Positions 14,595-57,989 of a DNA stretch of 64,000 nt are shown in pieces; positions within the stretch are counted from its first letter, which is position 1, and the number at the start of each line of letters is the position of its first letter. A program made the position numbers and the translations under genes. The stretch lies in the NCBI GenBank assembly GCA_010645155.1, contig JAAGOF010000250.1, positions 484,747 to 548,746 on the forward strand, in the 5' to 3' direction. The notes beneath the pieces were generated by a model. The model saw nothing but the letters and a program-made list of their open reading frames with translations, was not told the origin of the DNA and did no database searches. This DNA is from Tigriopus japonicus. Lineage: Eukaryota; Arthropoda; Copepoda; Harpacticoida; Harpacticidae.

Positions 14595-17500
14595 ATGAGG
14601 ACACTCCTGAATCTCGTGTTATTGCTTTTAAGCGCCCAACATCTAATGGGGGCTGAGAGCAAAATGCTCAAGGATTACATCACAGATGCCACCAAGCAAA
14701 AAGAGGCCCAGCAAAGGTTTCGCGAGACTTTCTCTTTCCTCAAAGACCACGAGATCAAACTTTTCAAGATCGAGGCCGTGGATTATCGCGATGGGAATTA
14801 CACGGGTGAAGTGAACGACCAGAAGGAACGTCATGGGTGGGGCGAGATGTATTGGAAAAATGGCACCGTCTATGGTCCTGGCAACATTTTCATCTACTCT
14901 CATGGAGACCGATACGTGGGACAATGGCTCAACAATAAACAAGATGGTAAACTAAGCCGTTTGAGGGATAGGCATGTGTTAAATGTAGCTGGGAAATGGT
15001 TCTGTCATCTTCAATTTAACCTTGTCCTGAAGGCATCAAACTTTGATCAAAGGGGTTTTCGCAACAAACCCTTCATGGTTTGTTGGCCAATTCAGGCTTC
15101 TGCAGAGTACGTTTGACCTTCTTTGGACCATTGATTAATGATTAAAAAGGGTCTGGGGGCTAAGTAGCTCAATAAACCCGACACTCAAAGACGAACGCAC
15201 GATGACGCGAGATTTTGCTACAAGGTTGTTTTTGACATTACTCATTCACGAACCTTCACAGACAATGGTATCAGAAACGAGACAACTTAGTTCTTGCTTC
15301 GTTGAGATGCAAAAGTAAACCATTTCGACGAGCCATTTCCCAGACCACAGTTGTCTCATATCTCTTTGTCTTTACAAAGAAATAACAAACACTTAACTTT
15401 GTGTTTGATTAATCAAGAAGCACTGAAATTCCACGGAAAGGAATTAAGCATGAAAATTCAGTGCTTCTTGGATGAATGAAACTGGTTTTTGAAAGTATTA
15501 AAGGAGATAACTTGTAAGATGCACAAGTAATGACGAGAAAGCTGAGTCCAATGAGTTGGTGGTGGTAGAGAAATGGCTCTTTAATTGTTGTATCTCCTTT
15601 TGCAAATCTCAAGGAGGTTAAGAAATAGCAAAGTTATCAAACCGCAATAAGAATAAATGGAAAGATGGACACTGGATGATAAGTGGTACACTTAGATGAT
15701 GGAAAACCAACTCATAATTACCGGTCTCACTAAGCAAGGAACACGATGATACGAAAATGACAGAAGCAAAGGAAAGTTTGATGCAAAGAGAGGACGACAC
15801 ACTTCAAGCGAGAAGAATCGCTCGTTTGATGTGAAAAGTAAGGGGGCTTTTCTTTGAATCCTCGTTCGAATGGCTTGGATGTGATTTACGCAGTCGTAAT
15901 CAAGACAAGTTCCAGTGTCAGCAGAACTTCCTTGCATTTTCAATTCTTTATGTGCCAGCCAGTTATCGACACTTTCACTCAGGTCATAATTTTGATCCTC
16001 GTGCTTTTACTCGATCCTTTTTTGCCCCCTAATCCTTTGACAAGACCCGCCAAGAAGAAAGCATCTCTCCTCTAATAACCTCTAAATTCCCACTAACGCG
16101 TCTTGAGGCCGTCAAAAGGAAGACCATGCTGCTTGCTATTGAAGGATTAATTGAAATCAGAGCCACGGGATGTGTTGTCTAATTAAAGCACCACCCGTCA
16201 AAAATGTCGATAGGTACACTCTGACAAAGGTCCTGTCGTTCTTTTGAGCTAAAATTTGTTTTCTGTCTTTAAATCATATTCTGGATAATACAAAAAACAT
16301 TCTAGAAGTTAGTGGGTGCACACTGGATATTCGATCGTTCCAGTCTATCCCACCTTGTTTTGATATCTTGGTTCAAAACATGATTGCGAGACAATTTTCA
16401 TGTCAGAATATAATCACTTTGATGTCCAAGCAGGGTTACCAAGTTTTGGAGAAGCCTCTCGGCCACTTTTGTTGTGAAATTCGTATACTTTCGGACACCT
16501 CTTTGAAACCTTTGGCCACTTTTGGCAGCAAAATGAAAAACAATTTCTCACTGAAAATGGCGTTTTGCCTAAACTAAAATCGAGTCGTTGAAAATTTCAA
16601 ACAAAAAAATGGAAAAAAACTAGAAAATATTAAGGCATTCAGTTTTTCACCAAAAAATTGGAAAAAAATTCGTCGGAAACAAAATTATATTACAATGGCA
16701 CAAATTTCAATTCCCCCAATCAAAATTTGGCCCAATCTCCTAAAGAACATTCATTGGTACTTTGAAGTTTGTATCCAAATGCTACAGAAATTTGTGAACA
16801 CAATGAGTTATGTTTCAGATCCAGAAAACTAAGAGGATTTGTTTATCAGTTGCTGGGATGTTTCAGTTTGACTGGTCCATTTTTACTTGTTCACCAATGA
16901 TTGATTTGAGTGTTCAAATGAAACCATAAGTTTCTTCCAAAAAAAGGTGTAATGTACACCCGAAGTCACATCAAACCAAAAAAACATCAATGGTTATGGG
17001 CTACTGATACAGGATCCATTTTACAAAAATCGNNNNNNNNNNNNNNNNNNNNNNNNNNNNNNNNNNNNNNNNNNNNNNNNNNNNNNNNNNNNNNNNNNNN
17101 NNNNNNNNNNNNNNNNNNNNNNNNNNNNNNNNNNNNNNNNNNNNNNNNNNNNNNNNNNNNNNNNNNNNNNNNNNNNTCTTGCGGCCACCGGGTTTCACAT
17201 TCGGCCATTTTTGGCAAAAATAGCCGAGGATTCGGCCACCTGGCCACCCTGTGTCCAGGAGTAGCAATCCTTTTATTTAGGAGATCACTATCGCAATATA
17301 GATCTAATGAATTCTTTGGAATTTCTTTCGGCCCTCAACAAAATGTCACATTGCTGGCACAAGAGGGTTCAACATTTTTCCCGTATTTAGGACTTTTTGG
17401 GACGTTTTGAATGGATGAGTGTAATCGAACAAATTCAGCTGTGGATTCTGGGGCCAAAATGATTAGGGATGGGCCAGAACTAGGTTCGGACATTTCATAG

Positions 17501-20827: not shown

Positions 20828-20833
20828 TGTATA
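20828..20833. repeat. left target-site duplication TGTATA
   Basis: The 6-bp TGTATA directly abuts the AGTAGTATATAG terminus and recurs in the same orientation at 25878-25883. Six-bp duplications are the hallmark of Polinton/Maverick integration. Confidence 0.8.
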
Positions 20834-20916
20834 AGTAGTATATAGATTCACTCGATTTTCGCAGGTGCAATCATGCATAACCCCTAATTTCCGGCCCGGA
20901 TGTAATGGCCTGATTT

Positions 20917-21375
20917 TGGAAAAAAGCAGGTGGACAACAAATTTGAACCTCAAAGGAAAACAATAGTTTAAATTGCACAGCTCAAAATACGTACAATTAA
21001 AAAAATAATGACTCAAATACATTAATCATTTAAAATGTAATGAGATGACGTAATAATTTCCCAGGGATGACTCATCATCATGTGGAAAAAGAAGCGGGTA
21101 CGAAACAAACGTGAATGAACAAAGGAACCTCAAAGGAAGTGGCAGACAATGTTTTTAATTGCCTGTCATTGAAAAATAAAGTCAATTAAAAAATGATTAA
21201 CAAATGAGTAGTTGGGATACGGAAAGTGCGTTGATGGTTAACGCAACCTGTGGAAAAGAGCAGGTGCGCAACAAGAGGTGAATGAACAAAGAAACCTCAA
21301 AAGAAGTGGTGGACAACATTTGTTTAACTTCATATCATTGAAAGTTGAAGCCAATTAAAAAATGATTAGCAAATC
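20917..21375 (+). repeat. three ~167-bp degenerate subterminal repeats, left arm
   Basis: Units start at about 20917, 21083 and 21251. Each contains TGGAAAA followed by a (C/G)GGTG-C-AACAA part, then AACCTCAAAGGAA-like text, then AATTAAAAAATGATTA in the last two. They lie between the terminus and the 104-aa gene and could be replication or packaging signals; that role is speculative. Confidence 0.6.
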
Positions 21376-21439
21376 AGTGTTTTAACAAGTTAGGATTACC
21401 AGAAAGAAGGTTTTGACCAAGAGATTGGTTACATAAGAA

Positions 21440-21754
21440 ATGAAAGAGACAAAAACTCTAACGAGTTTGTTTTTTAAATACGAAAAAATGGGACTGCAAG
21501 AAATTGCTCAATTCACGCCCGAAGAAGCAAAAATGATAGCGAACGAAGAATCCCGAGGGATTAAAGCGCTACTATTGAAATATAAGTGCTTTACTATGAT
21601 GGTCCTAACCTGTTTGATTATGTCTAACATTATTATATTTCTTGTAAGAGCAACAACAATGTCCAATAGTTATGTTGACAACTTGATCTCCTTTCTCCAA
21701 GACCATTTTAATACCACAGACCAACTCATAAATAAAGGAAAACTCTCAACATGA
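21440..21754 (+). CDS. 104-aa single-pass membrane protein, left copy
   Basis: A complete frame of 104 codons. The first 50 residues are charged and amphipathic (FTPEEAKMIANEESRG). A transmembrane segment follows at about residues 50-69 (CFTMMVLTCLIMSNIIIFLV). A short C-terminal ectodomain-like part carries an N-glycosylation site (NTT at 91-93). It converges with the polymerase gene, with 63 bp between the two stop codons. An AATAAA overlaps its last codons. I do not recognise the family; Polintons and adintoviruses carry many small unassigned membrane proteins. An identical copy sits in the other arm. Confidence 0.6.
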   Translation: MKETKTLTSLFFKYEKMGLQEIAQFTPEEAKMIANEESRGIKALLLKYKCFTMMVLTCLIMSNIIIFLVRATTMSNSYVDNLISFLQDHFNTTDQLINKGKLST

Positions 21755-21817
21755 AGATACCAACATGCGTTTTTATTCATTCAAGCATAAAAAATCATAC
21801 ATAAGGTTAGGGAACAA

Positions 21818-23411
21818 CTAAACACAAAAGGAACAGGTAGGGGAATTGGCCGGAATCTCCGAACTACCATAAGGCAGTGAGTGAACTCCGCAAGATAAAA
21901 CATAACGCTTATCATCGTAACTGGAAAAAGCCAATTTGTTGCTGCGAACAATGTGCATTAAATGGTTTTTACTTTGAATGGAAAATTGCTGAACGGAGAT
22001 GGAAGAGATTGTTTCTAAACATTTTTCGAAATGGGTTAGGGGAATCTTATTTTTGAAAGTTCTAGCCACACCCTTACACTTCACGGTGTCCTTGGAACCT
22101 TCCGTCTCAAAAGCATAACATTTCGAGCGTAGTCCAATGAATCTTGTCACCAATTTGGACCCAGTTTCAGATTTGAAGTAGCCCAAACGAGATTTATTTG
22201 CCAAAGAAGCCAGAGGATGAGCGGGATCAAAATTAGAAGTGTCGAGAATGGGTAAAAGTCTTTGAAATGGATTACTCAAATAAGGGGTGGAGATGAACAA
22301 ACTGTCCGTGTCACTCATCAATACCTCAGCCTTTCCGTCAAAGGCCGGCAAAATGTGCTCGTAATACGATCTATACATAAATTCTTTGGACAAGTCCAAA
22401 ATCGAAAAGCCCACTAGGTAGGCCTGTTTGGCCTTAGTCACAGGAGACTTTAGGAAAGCGGCTACTAAATCAGGGGATATGATCAAGAAATTCATAAACC
22501 TCGGATTTGTGGCTTGTTTCATCATATATTCTTTACTGTGGGCAAACTTGACTCTTACATGCTTGCTCGTATTTTCTATAAATTTGCCGTAAATGCAATT
22601 GGCCATTAACTTGAAAAGTCGCTTTTTAAAATCCGTGGTTGCACTTTGTCTCATTTCAGTGCAATAATCAATGTATTGTTTCAAAAATTTGGATTGGCGA
22701 AAACGAATGACTCTATGAGTTTGCTTAAGTTGCATTCCCAATTTTAAATACAACTTTAGAGTAGAGTAATGTACCACATATTTTTGTCTATCATAAAAAG
22801 TGGCCGATAGTTTGCTCGATTTCGTTGGTTTCATGTCCAATTTTTCCTGACATTGTAACTGATAGGGCGAAAGCATGTTTTGAGAAACGGTTACTTTTTC
22901 CGGAGCCAGAGGGAAACTACGATGCACTGCATGTAAGCTGGATGGATACTTCAAGTCTACTTCAAAAATATAGCCATATTCATCCTCACGACTAAGTTGA
23001 TTAATGTCCAGATCCTTGATTTCACTTTCGCTCAAGAATGAATACTCACCAATGGGCAATGGCTGACACTGGGCCCACCCATACAGATTGTTGGCATCAA
23101 TGTACAACAAGGCTTTTCGACGAGCCGGAGTCATGATCAATCGACCATCCGAAGCCAATGTTTTTTTGGCTGCCACAAAGTTGCTCTCCATGCGTTTACT
23201 GACAAAAGAAAAGCCCCCTCGAATATTATTAGCCATCATTAAAAACAAATCAGGATCTCGAATGAAATCTATTTCAATCTTGGTAAGCTTGAGCATGCAA
23301 TCATAGGCAAAGCCTGGCAAAGATATGTATTGACACGGATCAAGGTGAAACTTGTCATACATCGTTTCCCGAAATTGAATAAAGACATCAGCCAAAAGCG
23401 CCGTATCAAGC
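21818..23411 (-). pseudogene. polB: 5'-truncated protein-primed DNA polymerase B, left copy
   Basis: About 530 codons of a DNA_pol_B_2-type polymerase with an intact 3' end. It covers the end of the exonuclease domain (DTALLADVFIQFR, then LDPCQYISLPGF) and the whole polymerase core: motif A YIDANNLYGWA, motif B KLMANCIYGK and motif C MSDTDSLF with both catalytic Asp. The N-terminal exonuclease motifs I and II and any terminal-protein part are missing, because the sequence switches at 23411/23412 into the mirror arm. The open frame continues to 23623, but its first 71 codons are antisense read-through of the other arm and are not polymerase. Only this copy includes the spacer-coded exonuclease part. 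AATAAA is at 21777-21772. Confidence 0.85.
23300..23411. other. 112-bp unique spacer at the palindrome centre
   Basis: This is the only non-duplicated part of the element. It encodes, on the minus strand, the DTALLADVF...GFAYDC segment of the polymerase. The arm boundary falls at GAGCATGCA on the left and TGCATGCTC on the right. The self-complementary TGCATGC text there could have primed a fold-back. Confidence 0.8.
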
Positions 23412-24893
23412 TGCATGCTCAAGCTTACCAAGATTGAAATAGATTTCATTCGAGATCCTGATTTGTTTTTAATGATGGCTAATAATATTCGAGGGGGCTT
23501 TTCTTTTGTCAGTAAACGCATGGAGAGCAACTTTGTGGCAGCCAAAAAAACATTGGCTTCGGATGGTCGATTGATCATGACTCCGGCTCGTCGAAAAGCC
23601 TTGTTGTACATTGATGCCAACAATCTGTATGGGTGGGCCCAGTGTCAGCCATTGCCCATTGGTGAGTATTCATTCTTGAGCGAAAGTGAAATCAAGGATC
23701 TGGACATTAATCAACTTAGTCGTGAGGATGAATATGGCTATATTTTTGAAGTAGACTTGAAGTATCCATCCAGCTTACATGCAGTGCATCGTAGTTTCCC
23801 TCTGGCTCCGGAAAAAGTAACCGTTTCTCAAAACATGCTTTCGCCCTATCAGTTACAATGTCAGGAAAAATTGGACATGAAACCAACGAAATCGAGCAAA
23901 CTATCGGCCACTTTTTATGATAGACAAAAATATGTGGTACATTACTCTACTCTAAAGTTGTATTTAAAATTGGGAATGCAACTTAAGCAAACTCATAGAG
24001 TCATTCGTTTTCGCCAATCCAAATTTTTGAAACAATACATTGATTATTGCACTGAAATGAGACAAAGTGCAACCACGGATTTTAAAAAGCGACTTTTCAA
24101 GTTAATGGCCAATTGCATTTACGGCAAATTTATAGAAAATACGAGCAAGCATGTAAGAGTCAAGTTTGCCCACAGTAAAGAATATATGATGAAACAAGCC
24201 ACAAATCCGAGGTTTATGAATTTCTTGATCATATCCCCTGATTTAGTAGCCGCTTTCCTAAAGTCTCCTGTGACTAAGGCCAAACAGGCCTACCTAGTGG
24301 GCTTTTCGATTTTGGACTTGTCCAAAGAATTTATGTATAGATCGTATTACGAGCACATTTTGCCGGCCTTTGACGGAAAGGCTGAGGTATTGATGAGTGA
24401 CACGGACAGTTTGTTCATCTCCACCCCTTATTTGAGTAATCCATTTCAAAGACTTTTACCCATTCTCGACACTTCTAATTTTGATCCCGCTCATCCTCTG
24501 GCTTCTTTGGCAAATAAATCTCGTTTGGGCTACTTCAAATCTGAAACTGGGTCCAAATTGGTGACAAGATTCATTGGACTACGCTCGAAATGTTATGCTT
24601 TTGAGACGGAAGGTTCCAAGGACACCGTGAAGTGTAAGGGTGTGGCTAGAACTTTCAAAAATAAGATTCCCCTAACCCATTTCGAAAAATGTTTAGAAAC
24701 AATCTCTTCCATCTCCGTTCAGCAATTTTCCATTCAAAGTAAAAACCATTTAATGCACATTGTTCGCAGCAACAAATTGGCTTTTTCCAGTTACGATGAT
24801 AAGCGTTATGTTTTATCTTGCGGAGTTCACTCACTGCCTTATGGTAGTTCGGAGATTCCGGCCAATTCCCCTACCTGTTCCTTTTGTGTTTAG
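23412..24893 (+). pseudogene. polB: 5'-truncated protein-primed DNA polymerase B, right copy
   Basis: Mirror copy of the left polymerase fragment. It starts exactly at the arm boundary, with the first Met at 23415, and gives 492 codons to the stop at 24893. Motif A (Asp 67), motif B (Lys 229 to Lys 238) and motif C (Asp 329 and Asp 331) are intact. It is shorter than the left copy by the 112-bp spacer, so it lacks the last exonuclease block. No substitutions or stops were seen, which points to a very recent duplication. Confidence 0.85.
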
Positions 24894-24956
24894 TTGTTCC
24901 CTAACCTTATGTATGATTTTTTATGCTTGAATGAATAAAAACGCATGTTGGTATCT

Positions 24957-25271
24957 TCATGTTGAGAGTTTTCCTTTATTTATGAGTTGGTCTGTGGTAT
25001 TAAAATGGTCTTGGAGAAAGGAGATCAAGTTGTCAACATAACTATTGGACATTGTTGTTGCTCTTACAAGAAATATAATAATGTTAGACATAATCAAACA
25101 GGTTAGGACCATCATAGTAAAGCACTTATATTTCAATAGTAGCGCTTTAATCCCTCGGGATTCTTCGTTCGCTATCATTTTTGCTTCTTCGGGCGTGAAT
25201 TGAGCAATTTCTTGCAGTCCCATTTTTTCGTATTTAAAAAACAAACTCGTTAGAGTTTTTGTCTCTTTCAT
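24957..25271 (-). CDS. 104-aa single-pass membrane protein, right copy
   Basis: Identical in sequence and relative position to the copy at 21440-21754, in the mirror arm, and convergent with the right polymerase fragment. See that entry for the domain description. Confidence 0.6.
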   Translation of the reverse strand: MKETKTLTSLFFKYEKMGLQEIAQFTPEEAKMIANEESRGIKALLLKYKCFTMMVLTCLIMSNIIIFLVRATTMSNSYVDNLISFLQDHFNTTDQLINKGKLST

Positions 25272-25335
25272 TTCTTATGTAACCAATCTCTTGGTCAAAA
25301 CCTTCTTTCTGGTAATCCTAACTTGTTAAAACACT

Positions 25336-25794
25336 GATTTGCTAATCATTTTTTAATTGGCTTCAACTTTCAATGATATGAAGTTAAACAAATGTTGTCC
25401 ACCACTTCTTTTGAGGTTTCTTTGTTCATTCACCTCTTGTTGCGCACCTGCTCTTTTCCACAGGTTGCGTTAACCATCAACGCACTTTCCGTATCCCAAC
25501 TACTCATTTGTTAATCATTTTTTAATTGACTTTATTTTTCAATGACAGGCAATTAAAAACATTGTCTGCCACTTCCTTTGAGGTTCCTTTGTTCATTCAC
25601 GTTTGTTTCGTACCCGCTTCTTTTTCCACATGATGATGAGTCATCCCTGGGAAATTATTACGTCATCTCATTACATTTTAAATGATTAATGTATTTGAGT
25701 CATTATTTTTTTAATTGTACGTATTTTGAGCTGTGCAATTTAAACTATTGTTTTCCTTTGAGGTTCAAATTTGTTGTCCACCTGCTTTTTTCCA
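25336..25794 (-). repeat. three ~167-bp degenerate subterminal repeats, right arm
   Basis: Mirror image of the repeats at 20917-21375, at the exact mirror coordinates. Confidence 0.6.
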
Positions 25795-25877
25795 AAATCA
25801 GGCCATTACATCCGGGCCGGAAATTAGGGGTTATGCATGATTGCACCTGCGAAAATCGAGTGAATCTATATACTACT

Positions 25878-25883
25878 TGTATA
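25878..25883. repeat. right target-site duplication TGTATA
   Basis: Direct repeat of 20828-20833, immediately after the ACTACT terminus. Confidence 0.8.
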
Positions 25884-26283: not shown

Positions 26284-27257
26284 TAGGGACAGGAAGTTTA
26301 GACGAATAAAACTGTCAAAATAGACGAAAAAAGACGAATAAAAGTACCTGATTAGACGAATAAAGACGAATAAAATTGCCCGATTAGACGAAAAAAGACG
26401 AATAAAAGGCTACATTAGACGAAAAAAGACGAAAAAAACTAACTTACACGACAAAAAAAAACTAATGAATTGCCGGTCACGAGGATAAAAAGAGGATTAA
26501 AACTGCTGCCCATGAAGTAGACCTAATGTGTGGCCCAATAGAGGACATTAAACCAAGCTTGAAAAATTCACCAATAGATGGGAAGGTTGGGCCAGTAAAG
26601 AGAAAAGACTGGATCTCTAGAAAAGACTTGTGAGCTTAGTGCTTAGTACTTGGCCACTCTTTCACGTCGTCTATTGGCAAATTTTTCAAGCTTGGTTTAA
26701 AATCCTCTATTGAGGGGAACAGCTACCCCCTTGTGCAAAACGGCAAAATCTATAAAATTAACTAACGGAAAAGTGCCAAATGATCAAGAAATGGTCAATG
26801 GTCAACCGTCCTTATTTCAACATTTTCAATAGAGTAATATTTAGCAGCAGGTTTGCTGACACATTAGTTGTTTGCATAGTCAGATAGCCTTTCATTCCAA
26901 TAGTGGTGACCTTTTCTTTCTGCGTCTGTCAGGAAACTCTACAAGTTAAAATACAAGTGTGGATCATATTTTGCTCGTGCAATAACGCAACTGAAAATCA
27001 AACTATTACTTTGGCCCAAGTTTTGGAGTTGAACTTTTTAAAAGAGTGTCTATTTGCTTTAAAATTTGAGAAAAAAAACCAAAAAATCAACTAACTAATT
27101 AGACGAAAAAAGTTGAGTGTAATTGCCGGATTAGACGAAAAAAGACGAATAAAATCCAAATTAGACGAATAAATTTATCGCGACGAATAAGAGTAAAAAA
27201 GACGAATAAAGACGAAAAAAGACGAATAAGTTTATTCGTCTAAAGTTCCTGTCCCTA
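26284..27257. mobile_element. hAT-type element with dense GACGAATAAA repeats
   Basis: The ends are TAGGGACAGGAAGTTTAG and the inverse (one mismatch) at 27257. The 8-bp duplication GTTATGAT flanks it perfectly (26276-26283 and 27258-27265). Subterminal zones at 26300-26450 and 27095-27235 are packed with GACGAATAAA and GACGAAAAAA units, running in the same orientation at both ends. The middle holds an inverted repeat of about 45 bp (near 26537-26580 and 26668-26715, around CCAAGCTTGAAAAATT). No transposase is present. The repeated motif is a likely transposase-binding site. Confidence 0.85.
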
Positions 27258-50245: not shown

Positions 50246-51712
50246 CTAGGCACAATTTGGTGGAGGTTCCACTCTACATTCTGGAACAGCGTCTGACTCG
50301 AATTCTTCTCCTGTTTGACGTTTGGCTCTTCGTAAGGATCGATCAATAGGGACAGGAATCCATTTTTCATCTTGATGAGGTTCATATGTCATCGTTTGGG
50401 TATTTGTAGGCACACTAGATTTGGGGGATTCTATGTCAGATAGGTGCCCTTGATGAGCATTTGTGGGCTCGTCCCAAATTTGATCCCCATCGCTGTTCCT
50501 ATCAATGTTATTGCTCTGAATGTGTGAATAATACCTGTCGTAAATAGACGGAAAATCTGATTCTGGTGAATGAACTGGATTGTTTGGGGAATTTGATTGG
50601 TTTTGATTAAAATCGTCGTTGCTTTGCACCAACCCCTGGTTGGAAGGGGACGTATTTTGATTGTTGAATGTGTTTTGCGTCATGTTCATACGTAGGGAAG
50701 CATTCTGTTTGACTTGGGCAAAGAAATCTGCGAGATCCGCATTCTGGACTGATTGAGCGAGGTCAAGATTGGTAGCATTCACTCCTGGAAGCAATTTGTT
50801 GCCCTCCATATCACATGTCACACCTAGGATGCACGGCTCACTCACAACAGTTACGAGAACACGGAGTCCATACAAACGTTCCACGGTCTGCATTTGAGGA
50901 GTCTGAGGGACCTCATAATAGTATTCAATGACAGGAGGTGGACCAAAGAGTTTCTGTCGTAGGTTGTTTTCGAGGCTCTGCTTGAACTTGGTGATCCCTT
51001 CCACTTTTCGACCCAATCTGTGCTGCAAATTAGCCCAAACCGATCGTATTCGCCATGGAAAGGTTTCTGGTAACTGACGACGGAATCGACGTCTTACCAA
51101 TCTTCTGTTAGCCATACCTGCAGCAGCCAAGGTTGTGGCATCGCTTTCTGAAAAGATTACCCCCACTGCATTATTGGAACGATCGGAGATAAACGGTGGA
51201 AACACTGCCACTGGTGCCAAACCGTCAGGGACCAAGGACAAGGCCAGAATATTGGTGGGAGAGTTAGGGATGGGCAATCCTCCCCCTCCTGGAGTTCCTG
51301 GTTGTGGCGCATTTGCAGGAGCCAATCCAACCGCGGTAGCTACTGCTGCTACCGCAACAGCGGCAACAGGAGGCGGGGGTGGAGGTGGAGGCGGAGGCGG
51401 TGCTGCTGGTGTCAATGCTAAACTGGCCAGTCCTGCCGCTCCAATTAACCCAGCTGTTCCTATGCCAATGTTCACCAAGTTGGGCCTGACAACTTCACTT
51501 TCACTTCCGCAACCACCTCTTTTGAATCGACGACGTACTACACTTAAATCAGCCGCAGTAAGATACTCTTCGTTTTGTAAGATCTCCAAGCTTCGCTCAT
51601 ATGGTATGCTTCTCGCTGAGATTGATTGGTCGCATGTCCTTAATGGGATGAGGCATAAATCCTGAGTGAGCTCAATAGGAACGGTGGGAGTTGTTGTTGT
51701 TGTTGATGTTGA

Positions 51713-51747
<35 letters not shown>

Positions 51748-51786
51748 CTGTTGTTGTAGCTGTACTTGTAATTGTTGTAGTTGTAG

Positions 51787-51827
<41 letters not shown>

Positions 51828-53163
51828 GACGACGGTTGTGGAGTAGTAGTAGTAGTAGTAGTAATAGTAGTAGTTGTAGTAATTGTTGTTGGTGTAGTTG
51901 TAGATGTGGTTGTAGTTGTAGTTGTAGCTGTGGGTGTGGGTGATGTTATGGATGCAGTTGTAGGTGTAGTAGTTGTTGTGGTTGTAGTTATACTTGGAAT
52001 TGCTATAGTTATGATTGGAGTTGTAGGTGGAGTTGTTGGATTAGTTGGTGCGGTTGTTATAGAACTTGTTGATGGAGTTGTTAGTGTTGATGGCGGAGCA
52101 GTTGATGGGGGAGCAGTGTTGGCTGTTACTGTACTAGTTGCAACAGTGGATGTAACTGATGGTTGGGTAGAAAATTGGATTACCTGAACTGTTGCACGCG
52201 TACTATTTGTGACAGATTGAGGACCACCTGTTTGATTGAAAACTGGTCCACGAGTCGTGTCTCCAATTGTCGCCACGCCTAAAGTAAAAAGTGGGGTGGA
52301 GGAGGTAACCCTTGGTCTGAGTGAAGAGGGCGTGATGGTGGACCTTGGGCGTGGTGATGTTAAAGTGCTTGTTGATATTGGTGTGTTAGTAGTTTTGACG
52401 GATCTCGTAGGATCAGTAGAGCTTGTCACAGTTGTGGAAAACAATAAATTTCTGGCAGTGGTTGACTGAGAGGGTTGTGAAATTGGCAAGAATGGATCAT
52501 TTATTGTAGAGTATCGTGGAAGAACAGGGTTAAACCGAAACCCTGGTTTGGTGTCAGGTGCTAAATTTGGCCGAAATGGGGCGCTTGTCGTTGTTGGTGA
52601 TGAAGGTTTAGGTCTTTGAGGTTGGCCAGGGATGCGGTAAAATCCATTGTTTCCCCTTCCCACCTTGGGTTTATCTTTTAAAGGGGTTTGTTTGGTCGTC
52701 GAGAGTTCATGAGATCGATTAGTAGCCTGACCATTCACTGAAATGCTTGGTTTTCGTATTTGGGGTCTTCTTGTGGAAATGGGACGAATAATCACTTGTG
52801 GCACAGGGGTGGGATCATGTCTATCTTCATGGTTAGCTCTATACACTTGAGGTTTGAAATAAATCGCATGCTCTTCATTGGAGTCTGCCTCTAACTTTTC
52901 GAACTCGAATCGGCTTTTGAGAAACGGATGCTCCTTGTAATAATCCAGTATTGTGGGTTCTTCCGTCTGGGATTGCAATATTTTCGTCCCATCGCCCGCT
53001 CTCAACACTTTGGCGTAAGGTTTTGAACTGCCCAGACTTAACCCTAATGTTGGGAAGCTTCCGAGGACACCTAAGACAAGCTGAGGGTAAATAAAAATAG
53101 AAAAAACGTTAACCATTGATAATTGATTAGTCTTTTTGATCTCACCATTATCAGTGATGCCAT
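50246..53163 (-). CDS. large secreted Thr/Pro-rich precursor, copy 1
   Basis: Exon 1 (53163-53146) codes only MASLIM. Exon 2 (53080-50246) adds 944 aa, total 950. Splicing completes a signal peptide (MASLIM then LVLGVLGSFPTLGLSLG). The open frame could also start inside the intron, but the paralogue shares the same tiny-exon structure, so the spliced start is preferred. After a conserved N-terminal part (IYFKPQVYRA) come a Pro/Thr-rich zone, a poly-Thr tract, a Pro run, and a conserved C-terminal third (NAPQPGTPGGGGLPIPNSP, then IEYYYEVPQTPQ). Three basic cleavage sites are conserved with the paralogue: RRRFKR (~521), RRRFRR (~668) and RRAKR (~924). The last would release a 24-residue peptide with two Cys. 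I do not recognise the family; a cuticle, mucus or egg-coat precursor is conceivable. Confidence 0.85.
51683..51930. repeat. GTT/GTA trinucleotide array encoding poly-Thr
   Basis: Tandem GTT, GAT, GTA and AGT triplets on the plus strand read as ACN (Thr) codons on the coding minus strand. Repeat slippage likely makes this part length-variable. Confidence 0.9.
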
Positions 53164-53198
53164 TACTTTATGTCGAACTTTGACCATCTTCGAGTCAT

Positions 53199-54958: not shown

Positions 54959-57954
54959 CTAATTACAATTTGGTGGAGACACCACCCTGCATTCTGGACT
55001 GGCGTCTGACTCAAATGCTTCTCCCGTTTGCCGTTTCGTTCTGTACATGGATCGATAACTTGGAACAGGTATCCAAGAATCATCATGATGTGGTTGGTGT
55101 GGAAAGGTATCGTCATCATCAATTGATTCATCGTAGTCATAGTCATGAAGGAAGCTACGGGCGTCGTTTGGATAATCTTCTACGTATTGCCGCTCCTGCC
55201 GTTGTGCTTCGTTGTTGTAACGAATATCATCGCTCTGTACAGACGAATGATATCTTTCGTATATGGACGGAAAGTCTGATTCAGGTGAATTGATTGAATT
55301 CCCTGGAGAGTTGAACGAGTTTTGATTGAAATCGTCATTGCCTAGTATTGGTAATGCCATATTCATCTGCAGGGAGGCGTTCCGTTTTACCTGAGCCAAA
55401 AATTCAGATAGATCCACATTTTGGACTGATTGAGCGAGTTCAAAATTGGTGGCATTCACTCCCGGCACTAATTTATTGCCATCCATGTCACATGTCACAC
55501 CCAAAATGCAAGGCTCACTCAACACGGTCACCATAACACGAAAACCATATAATCGTTCCACTGCTTCCACTTGAGGAGTCCGTGGGACTTCATAGTAATA
55601 CTCAGTTGCAGGGGGTGGACCAAAAATTTTTTGCCTCACTCTACTTTCGAGATTTTGTCGAAATTTTGTAAAGCCGTCTACTTTTCGTCCCCATCGGCGT
55701 TGCAAATTGGTCCAAGCTGATCTTATTCGCCATGGAAAGGTTGCTGGCAACTGACGACGGAATCGACGTCGGGCCAATTTTCTATTTTCCACGGTAGCAC
55801 CAGCTATCGAGGTCTCATCATCCTCGGAGAAAATGACCCCCACGGCAGGTACGGTTCGATCGCTAACAAATGGTGGGAACACGGACACGGGTACAAGACC
55901 ATCAGGGACCAAAGATAAGGCCAGAATGTTGGTGGGAGAGTTTGGAATGGGTAATCCTCCTCCTCCAGGAGTTCCTGGTTGTGGAGCGTTGGCTGGAGCC
56001 ATTCCAACTGGCGTGGTTACTTCAGGTTCCGCTGCTGCAGGAGGTGGCGGTGGAGGTGGCGGCGGTGGAGGCGGTGGAGGGGGTGCGAAAGCTGCTGGAA
56101 TCAATGCTAGGCTGGCAAGTCCCGCAAGACCTATCAATCTAGCTGTTCCGATACCCACACTTATACCGTTAGTGGTATGATTCATGGGGCCCATATGACC
56201 TGATGGACCTATTGCAGCACCTGTAGAACCTGCAGCACCACTAGCTAGCACAATGAAACCATTCCTCTTAAATCGACGAAGGCGGACAACATCAAAATCG
56301 GCAGCCACCAGATATTCTTCACTTTGAGCAATCTCTAGGGCTCTCTCATAAGTTAATCTTCGGCCAGTAATGACTTGGTCGCAGGTCCTGATGGGGACAA
56401 GGCATAAATTTTCGGTAAGATCGAGAGGAATCGTCGGATTGACTGTTGTGGCAATTGTTGTAGTAACAGTCGTAGTAGTAGAAATAGTAGTCGTGGTTGT
56501 TATAAGTGTGGGTGGCGGCGGTGGAACGAAAGATGTTGTTGAAGCAGTTGTAGAAACCGTCGTAGGTGGCTCTGCAGTAGATTGTGGCGTAGTCACAACA
56601 GGAATTGGAGGTGGCGGTGGTTGAGTGTTTACCACTTGTGGAATTGGAGCCGTTGTTGGAGGTGGCAAAGTAACAATGGATGGTGTTGTAGATTGGGTGC
56701 TTGAGACAATCGGAACTTGGATTGTTGGTGTGGTTGTAACAACGACAACGGGCAGGGTTGTGGTGGATTGTGCGTTTAATGGTGATATAATGGTGGTGGT
56801 TGATGGTGTAGTGAAAATTCCTAAAGGGGGGCTGGTGGATTGATTTGTGACCCTGAACACTGGATCACCGACAGTTGTACTTAGTGTTGTCACTGGAGGA
56901 GCCGGGGTCGATTCGTTTGGAATTGGAAAATTTGGTAAGATGGCTGAAAGGGGCGGTGAAGACGATTCGGTGGGAAAAAATACTGTTTGTTGTCCCACTT
57001 GAGGTACGGGGATTTCAGGTTGAATTATGCTTGTTGGAGGGTTAATTTCGCCAATCACAAATGGGTTTATAACTGATCTGGTTGTTGATGCCTGCACCTG
57101 TCCAAAAAATGGACTAGCAGTTGGTTCTCTTGGATTCGCTGGAGGTAACCTACTAACCACATTGGAACGCAATGGTGTTGGTGTCACTAGTGGAGGTTTT
57201 CGCACAACTTCAAGCTGTGGCGAATTGGAAGAATTTATGACCACAGGCGGAATAAATCTATTTCTGTGGTCAAAGGACAAGGTGAATTGTGCTGCATTTG
57301 TGTTTGAATTTCCACGAACACGAGATGAAATGTAATTTGAGACAGTGCTTGAGTCCTCTAACGGTTTTCCAGGCCCATGATTCAAATTGGGCTGAAGCTT
57401 TGGACCTCGACTGTATGTCAATGAAGGATTTCGAACATTTGAATTCCTACTCAACGCTGATTCTCCTCGAGAAACGCGGTCAAGTGATTTAGGATTTGAT
57501 TGAGGATTGAACGAATTCGATTGTGAATTTTGAACGACTGGGATTTGCCGTTTGACTTGTGAATTTGTGGTAGAAATAGGGAGGGTTTTCACTTCCACCA
57601 AAGGTACTAGAGTTGGATCATGAGCAACCCGATGCCTTTGTTTGTACACTTGAGGTTTGAAATAAATTTCATGCCGCTGATCGTGTGCTAGCTCCAATTT
57701 TTTAACTTCGACTCCACCTTCGAAAGTAGGATACTCTTTAAAGTTACCAAAAGCTGTCCGATCGTTTGGTAACGTTTTTGCGTCATCTTCTTCCATCAAT
57801 ATTTTGGAGAATGGCTTCGAGCTCTCCAATCTCAACCCTAAAGCTGAGAAACCACTTATGAAACCCAAGATAACCTGTGAAATGGAAAGGTCAAGTTTCA
57901 AATGAATAACTTTGATACGAGTGTTGAGATTCTCACCAATGACAGGACAGACAT
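54959..57954 (-). CDS. large secreted Thr/Pro-rich precursor, copy 2
   Basis: Exon 1 (57954-57937, coding MSVLSL) joins exon 2 (57874-54959) to give 977 aa with a signal peptide (MSVLSLVILGFISGFSALG). The architecture is that of the 50-53 kb paralogue: IYFKPQVYKQRH near the N-terminus, a long low-complexity Pro/Thr/Ser zone, a Pro run, the NAPQPGTPGGGGLPIPNSP block, EYYYEVPRTPQ, and a C-terminal Cys pair in SPECRVVSPPNC. Basic sites RRFKR (~537), RRRFRR (~707) and RTKR (~952) are at corresponding places. Its Thr tract is much shorter and its Pro run longer than in copy 1. An Asp-rich patch (DYDYDESIDDDD) lies before the last site. The genes are head-to-tail, 1.8 kb apart. Function unknown. 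Confidence 0.86.
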
Positions 57955-57989
57955 TATTTGAAGACGGTGCTTAACCATAGCGCATGCAT

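Follow-up and report, generated by a model that had tools for sequence, protein, structure and literature searches.

The genome of Tigriopus japonicus contains a 5044-bp inverted repeat that we read, with a probability of about 0.68, as a palindromic, non-autonomous derivative of a Polinton residing in the same genome. The element occupies positions 20834–25877 of a 64,000-nucleotide stretch of contig JAAGOF010000250.1 (assembly GCA_010645155.1, positions 484,747 to 548,746 of the forward strand), referred to in full as the window. Its palindromic form likely arose by fold-back of a DNA strand, and its later insertion was likely performed by a Polinton integrase. All of the evidence is assembly sequence, the genome being represented by a 194.85-Mb assembly of 158 contigs.

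The element comprises two 2466-bp arms that are exact reverse complements, with 0 mismatches, separated by a 112-nt loop; an exact inverted repeat of this length rules out chance as an explanation. The termini read AGTAGT/ACTACT, corresponding to the (AGT)2//(ACT)2 motif, and the six bases immediately outside each end are TGTATA. Arms, loop, termini and duplication had all been described in an earlier reading of the window made from its letters (the sequence-only reading), and each was confirmed. The arms also carry diverged sub-terminal repeats, visible as extra inverted pairs in the repeat scan. The sole run of undetermined bases (N) in the window, at 17033–17176, lies beyond the element, which itself contains none. 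The parts of the element are as follows.

20828–20833, no strand: target-site duplication (TSD) TGTATA, left copy
20834–23299, plus strand: left arm, 2466 bp, beginning AGTAGTATAT
20844–20855, plus strand: variable end cassette AGATT-CAC-TCGA, found unchanged at the opposite end
23294–23299, plus strand: CATGCA, the presumed annealing site in the left arm
23300–23411, no strand: asymmetric loop of 112 nt, native polB sequence that in relatives runs on from the left arm
23412–23417, plus strand: TGCATG, a 6-nt microhomology; here the window departs from the parental order and turns back (parent TGCATGTAAAG, window TGCATGCTCAAGC)
23412–25877, minus strand: right arm, ending ACTACT
25878–25883, no strand: TSD TGTATA, right copy

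In each arm, the 3′ portion of a polB gene points outwards and a 104-aa open reading frame (ORF) points inwards.

21440–21754, plus strand: 104-aa ORF, left copy
21818–23411, minus strand: polB 3′ part, native side including the loop, its open frame continuing over the junction to 23623 (601 aa)
23415–24893, plus strand: polB 3′ part, mirror copy, a 492-aa open frame
24957–25271, minus strand: 104-aa ORF, mirror copy

The polB label derives from a relative in the same genome, L025. From arm base 270 onward, arm and loop match L025 1356–3664 over 2309 bp at 99.3% DNA identity, a stretch across the 1248-aa ORF of this copy; the window's own 601-aa ORF gave no Pfam match at E ≤ 0.1. Judged from its sequence, the element appears to retain no more than the 3′ portion of a PolB gene of the protein-primed type. 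The 104-aa ORF, present in L025 with one residue different, had been called a membrane-protein gene; one hydrophobic stretch is apparent by eye, but no Pfam match was found. An rve-type integrase ORF is absent from the ORF list of the element and present in relative L031, so the element is a non-autonomous derivative and not a Polinton proper. A read-through transcript of the element would fold as an RNA hairpin of ~2.4 kb matching the polB of its parent, and such a transcript is a possible source of small RNAs.

PolB together with an rve integrase is the hallmark of Polintons, and both occur among the relatives. The 1248-aa ORF (L025 2071–5817) matches PF03175 (PolB) at 2.6e-18 and carries a C2H2 finger, as well as an endonuclease-VII match of 0.015 that lies under its cut-off. 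A relative on C12, read in two pieces, encodes an rve integrase (1.9e-16) with a chromodomain (1.1e-5), and an ATPase-like ORF (L031 8158–8820) has AAA_22 and Pox_A32 matches, both under their curated cut-offs. The proposed Polinton membership of the source is supported by PolB and an rve-chromo integrase in same-genome relatives, which also have the ATPase-like gene. Family searches with the 398-aa and 424-aa ORFs of the C12 relative gave no convincing match, and modelling of P0009, which is homologous to the 398-aa ORF, gave a poor structure (predicted local distance difference test score of 34). Beyond this genome, no relatives were found in the viral contigs or prokaryote genomes searched; the nearest outside protein match is a PolB at 71%.

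L031 4039–5124: rve integrase
L025 7160–7789, L026 2629–3297 and L033 2541–3798: neighbouring TBP-like and TFIIB-ribbon-like ORFs

The ORFs of the second line appear to form a pair in which a TBP-like ORF (PF00352, 1.6e-11 and 5e-9) stands beside a TFIIB-ribbon-like ORF (3.2e-5 and 0.0016, both under cut-off). The values of 1.6e-11 and 3.2e-5 were scored on C105 copies; ORFs of L028, on C12, equal these in length and have similar openings. To our knowledge, such a pair is unusual in elements this small. In the C19 copy, polB is interrupted (L027 4240–8220) by an unrelated stretch of ~4 kb that contains long ORFs; one of these resembles a reverse transcriptase by eye.

The probable origin of the palindrome can be read at the point where the sequence turns back. 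In L025, L026 and L027, the loop continues as ...TATCAAGC-TGCATG-TA(A/G)AG, whereas the window reads ...TATCAAGC-TGCATG-CTCAAGC and thereafter mirrors its left arm. TGCATG (23412–23417) is complementary to CATGCA (23294–23299), with 112 nt between them. The loop is native and continuous on one side only, with one parental end doubled around it. The fold-back geometry suggested by the sequence-only reading is supported by a doubled end, a loop native to one side and a 6-nt inverted microhomology at the junction. At least six shared bases were found in 0.2% of 200,000 random fold-back junctions drawn from the same parent stretch. Inverted 6-mer pairs separated by 60–300 nt number 369 in this stretch, so such words are common, and the rarity lies in the break landing on an inverted 6-mer, not in the presence of these words. 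Read from the sequence, a shared 6-mer lying 112 nt from its complement would be the mark of a folded-back strand that primed its own synthesis. The turned junction is single-copy, since one place in the genome covers 321 of its 321 bases; the copies on C105, C19 and C12 match the junction query as 1–218 and 213–321, and that on C102 as 5–218 and 213–319. A candidate second polB palindrome, on C105, looked convincing, having arms of ~8 kb that align in two long pieces (97.6% and 97.8%). It was not counted as a polB fold-back because it has no TSD, unlike ends and a single N at the turn.

The element belongs to a larger family defined by its ends. Searched genome-wide, the end pattern AGTAGTATATNNNNNCACNNNNTTTT gave 71 matches, against 0 for a reversed control, and 85 with one mismatch allowed, against 3. 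From these 85 ends we assembled 21 facing-end pairs no more than 18 kb apart, the remaining 43 ends being without a facing partner. In six of the 21 pairs, 98% or more of the length is palindromic (the window element, L018, L019, L020, L021 and L023; the palindrome of L020 spans two alignments). Arms cover ~70% of the length in two more: L022, with arms of 1010 bp and a loop of 862 nt, and C12:6.84M, with arms of ~1241 bp that are 99.9% identical over the outer 730 bp and 100% over the inner 548 bp. Three more count as partial: C41 and C58, in which the palindrome is confined to the interior, and the doubtful C105. L017, L024 and C6:9.37M show no palindrome, a central N stretch prevents a judgement on the six elements L038–L043, and one pair was read at its ends only. 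A 6-bp TSD is matched at 6/6 bases in 16 of the 21 pairs, among them C10:3.851M (CACAAT), at 5/6 in three (L020, C6:9.37M and C12:6.84M), and is absent from two (C58 and C105). Besides the window element, the whole-length palindromes L018, L019, L021 and L023 therefore have perfect TSDs, and L020 matches at 5/6. The arms of these sister palindromes differ by 0.4–0.8% over long alignments. End repeats of the non-palindromic pairs and C12:6.84M, taking N-free cases, range from 234 to ~1241 bp. Four of the pairs with N in the middle (L038, L039, L040 and L043) are 196–254 bp long with family ends and perfect 6-bp TSDs; these copies are akin to miniature inverted-repeat transposable elements (MITEs) and are perhaps the smallest fold-backs of all.

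The sister palindromes have a centre of their own. A single centre is common to L018–L021, L022 (on one side), L023, C41 and C58, making eight loci read, with a ninth, C44, assigned by coordinates only, and a remnant retained in L017; target duplications vary between these loci. The core arms of L018–L021 differ at just 0–12 of 3039 columns, suggesting recent spread. An analysis of the ancestry of arms A and B in these four gave no consistent grouping, and re-copying of the cores was neither proved nor excluded. The centre has been remodelled in L023, whose loop is ~44 nt and differently placed by eye, and in L022, with its loop of 862 nt. We also considered L024 as the proven parent of these older palindromes and rejected it: its T-run junction coincides with the inner boundary of its 879-bp end repeat, so parent and derivative are indistinguishable.

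Insertion of a palindrome can be seen at L023, which interrupts a repeat resembling, by eye, a long interspersed nuclear element (LINE)-type reverse transcriptase. The flanks, once joined, align with four other copies of this repeat (89–97%), the matches starting at base 1 or 2 and ending at 400. In both copies that were read, the flanks meet to the exact base without a gap, and CCTTTG stands there once; nine bases farther along is a 7-base difference. The joint is direct evidence that the palindromic element L023 entered the site whole and gave rise to a 6-bp duplication. With the second centre at nine loci and the empty site of L023, we conclude that palindromic forms insert and have multiplied. 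Integration with a 6-bp duplication, as earlier proposed, accordingly agrees with both the TGTATA flanks of the window element and the L023 joint, and the presence of other palindromes at several loci supports the proposal that non-autonomous Polintons can originate as palindromic copies. Two checks called for by the sequence-only reading gave positive results in sister elements: other palindromic copies exist, though their centre is not in polB, and an empty site exists for L023. The window element is not a one-off, since an older palindromic lineage has multiplied here, while its own junction is single-copy. On the best reading, this genome contains two or more palindromic centres, that of the window element and another that has spread.

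A further trace of replication may lie in the ends themselves. After AGTAGTATAT follow a variable 5-mer, CAC and a variable 4-mer, cassettes that occur in many combinations between elements and are mostly equal at both ends within an element. Cassettes match in 17 of 20 pairs, whereas 100,000 shuffles averaged 1.8 matching pairs and never exceeded 9; the C10:3.851M pair, outside the shuffle test, disagrees, giving 17 of 21 overall. L018, L019 and L021 have near-identical cores, with ends that differ between the elements and agree within each. Pairing of ends on a single strand is expected of strand-displacement replication, and the simplest reading of the sequences is that such pairing would let one end serve as the template for its partner.

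Together, these features suggest the following course of events. A nascent or displaced strand starting from the polB-side end would have halted within polB, and its 3′ end, TGCATG, would have annealed to CATGCA 112 nt back, as the junction implies. Extension to its own 5′ end would have produced a hairpin with two identical ends, which a further round of protein-primed replication may have converted into a palindromic duplex. That duplex now lies between 6-bp duplications, the inserting enzyme presumably being a Polinton integrase. An older sister lineage of shared-centre palindromes stands at several loci with different target duplications, and during replication one end would template the other, as the matching cassettes indicate.

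Several observations weigh against this reading. The source copy itself was not found, since the outer 269 bp of the window arm are of a different end type from those of L025. The assembly yielded no empty counterpart of the window site, and none can be demonstrated because its flanks are unique. A pair of outward-facing polB copies was seen at just one other locus, C105, which we do not count. Ends are unlike in 4 of the 21 pairs, and the joins of L022 and L024 have no clear microhomology by eye. L024 is the only second-centre copy with other sequence beyond the loop, and it may be either parent or derivative. Finally, a local assembly error at the window is possible: N runs occur in 18 of the 56 fetched loci, many of them inside these elements, and arms without a single base difference fit youth and also a copying error. 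In such a case an ordinary Polinton, either longer or with shorter end repeats, would stand at the site, one side of it mirrored by a chimeric or hairpin read, and the single-copy junction is compatible with this. A mirrored read would, however, bring flanking sequence with it, whereas the flanks differ and the symmetry stops at the 6-bp duplication of an element that contains no N. A missed adapter does not leave an asymmetric 112-nt loop with microhomology, and independent errors would not yield 0.4–0.8% divergence between sister arms and a centre at nine loci. We therefore regard an assembly error as quite unlikely.

The palindrome could instead have formed in the chromosome, from an integrated Polinton altered by end-repeat recombination or by template switching of host replication, with no folded extrachromosomal molecule. 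The TSD would then be kept, and end repeats are mosaic between copies, so exchange of ends seems to occur; in the Drosophila cut-and-paste element Galileo, variation in end-repeat length has been tied to sequence exchange (PMC3573991). A mirror exact to the last base combined with fold-back microhomology seems to need more than one event at the locus, and the sister palindromes occupy new sites as a unit, though their founder could be chromosomal; on balance, this origin is improbable. Long end repeats, from 234 to ~1241 bp, are normal here, and they would allow the palindromes to be long-end-repeat Polintons that deleted their middle. Such deletion is very improbable, given that the loop continues just one of the two arms and that the polB copies at C12, C19, C11 and C44 match the polB query once each, though N runs in the C12 and C19 copies could conceal sequence.

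Elsewhere in the window, a tandem repeat array with units of 10–95 bp lies near the right flank of the element (26300–26502). Two adjoining Thr/Pro-rich open frames on the minus strand (50246–53167 and 54959–57970; 973 and 1003 codons) are similar by eye and perhaps represent a tandem gene duplication.

The element has likenesses to several known systems. Intact vertebrate Mavericks have (AGT)2//(ACT)2 ends, perfect 6-bp TSDs, lengths of 12.7–24.6 kb and end repeats of 46–1447 bp (PMC8097293). The window element shares its ends and 6-bp TSDs with Polintons/Mavericks (polintoviruses, adintoviruses), as well as PolB and the rve integrase of its parent kind, and differs in its length of 5.0 kb, its 2466-bp end repeats, the doubling of one parental end and the lack of an integrase. 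In snap-back genomes of adeno-associated virus (AAV), one end and its adjacent sequence are self-folded, symmetrically or asymmetrically (PMC8235507). The window element, likewise one end and adjacent sequence folded on itself, resembles these defective-interfering genomes; unlike AAV snap-back genomes, which are found in virions, its family is chromosomal and spreading. AAV is a parvovirus and is not protein-primed. The symmetric recombinants of adenovirus and the palindromic derivatives of yeast linear plasmids are free molecules of terminal-protein replicons in which one end is doubled. The window element similarly duplicates one end around a centre, but is integrated, with TSDs. Foldback/Galileo and MITE-type elements use other transposases and have other TSD lengths. 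Galileo provides an example of short elements with long inverted repeats that are mobilised in trans (PMC3573991), a likeness extending to Foldback and MITEs; here, unlike Foldback/Galileo, the source is a PolB replicon, the ends are those of a PolB/rve element and the loop is native gene sequence.

Among the matches listed in the Polinton/Maverick literature searched, no description of palindromic Polintons was found in titles and abstract openings. A vertebrate survey required integrase and PolB matches 4–40 kb apart (PMC8097293) and a cryptophyte survey inserts of 6–80 kb between end repeats (PMC12220804). Both filters would miss palindromes of this kind, so the class may be overlooked elsewhere. 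Interference of the window element with its parent would be a guess. A wider picture, which we put somewhat short of an even chance, is that snap-back Polintons integrate, are re-mobilised in trans and found satellite lineages, with ends that rewrite one another at each round of replication, a fold point that sets the end-repeat length of the following generation, and long, perfect hairpin RNAs directed at the polB of the parent. Replication of free Polinton DNA is otherwise largely inferred from gene content. If our reading is true, the fold-back palindromes and matched cassettes would be a chromosomal record of that replication, and the palindromes would supply a defined origin for non-autonomous Polintons.

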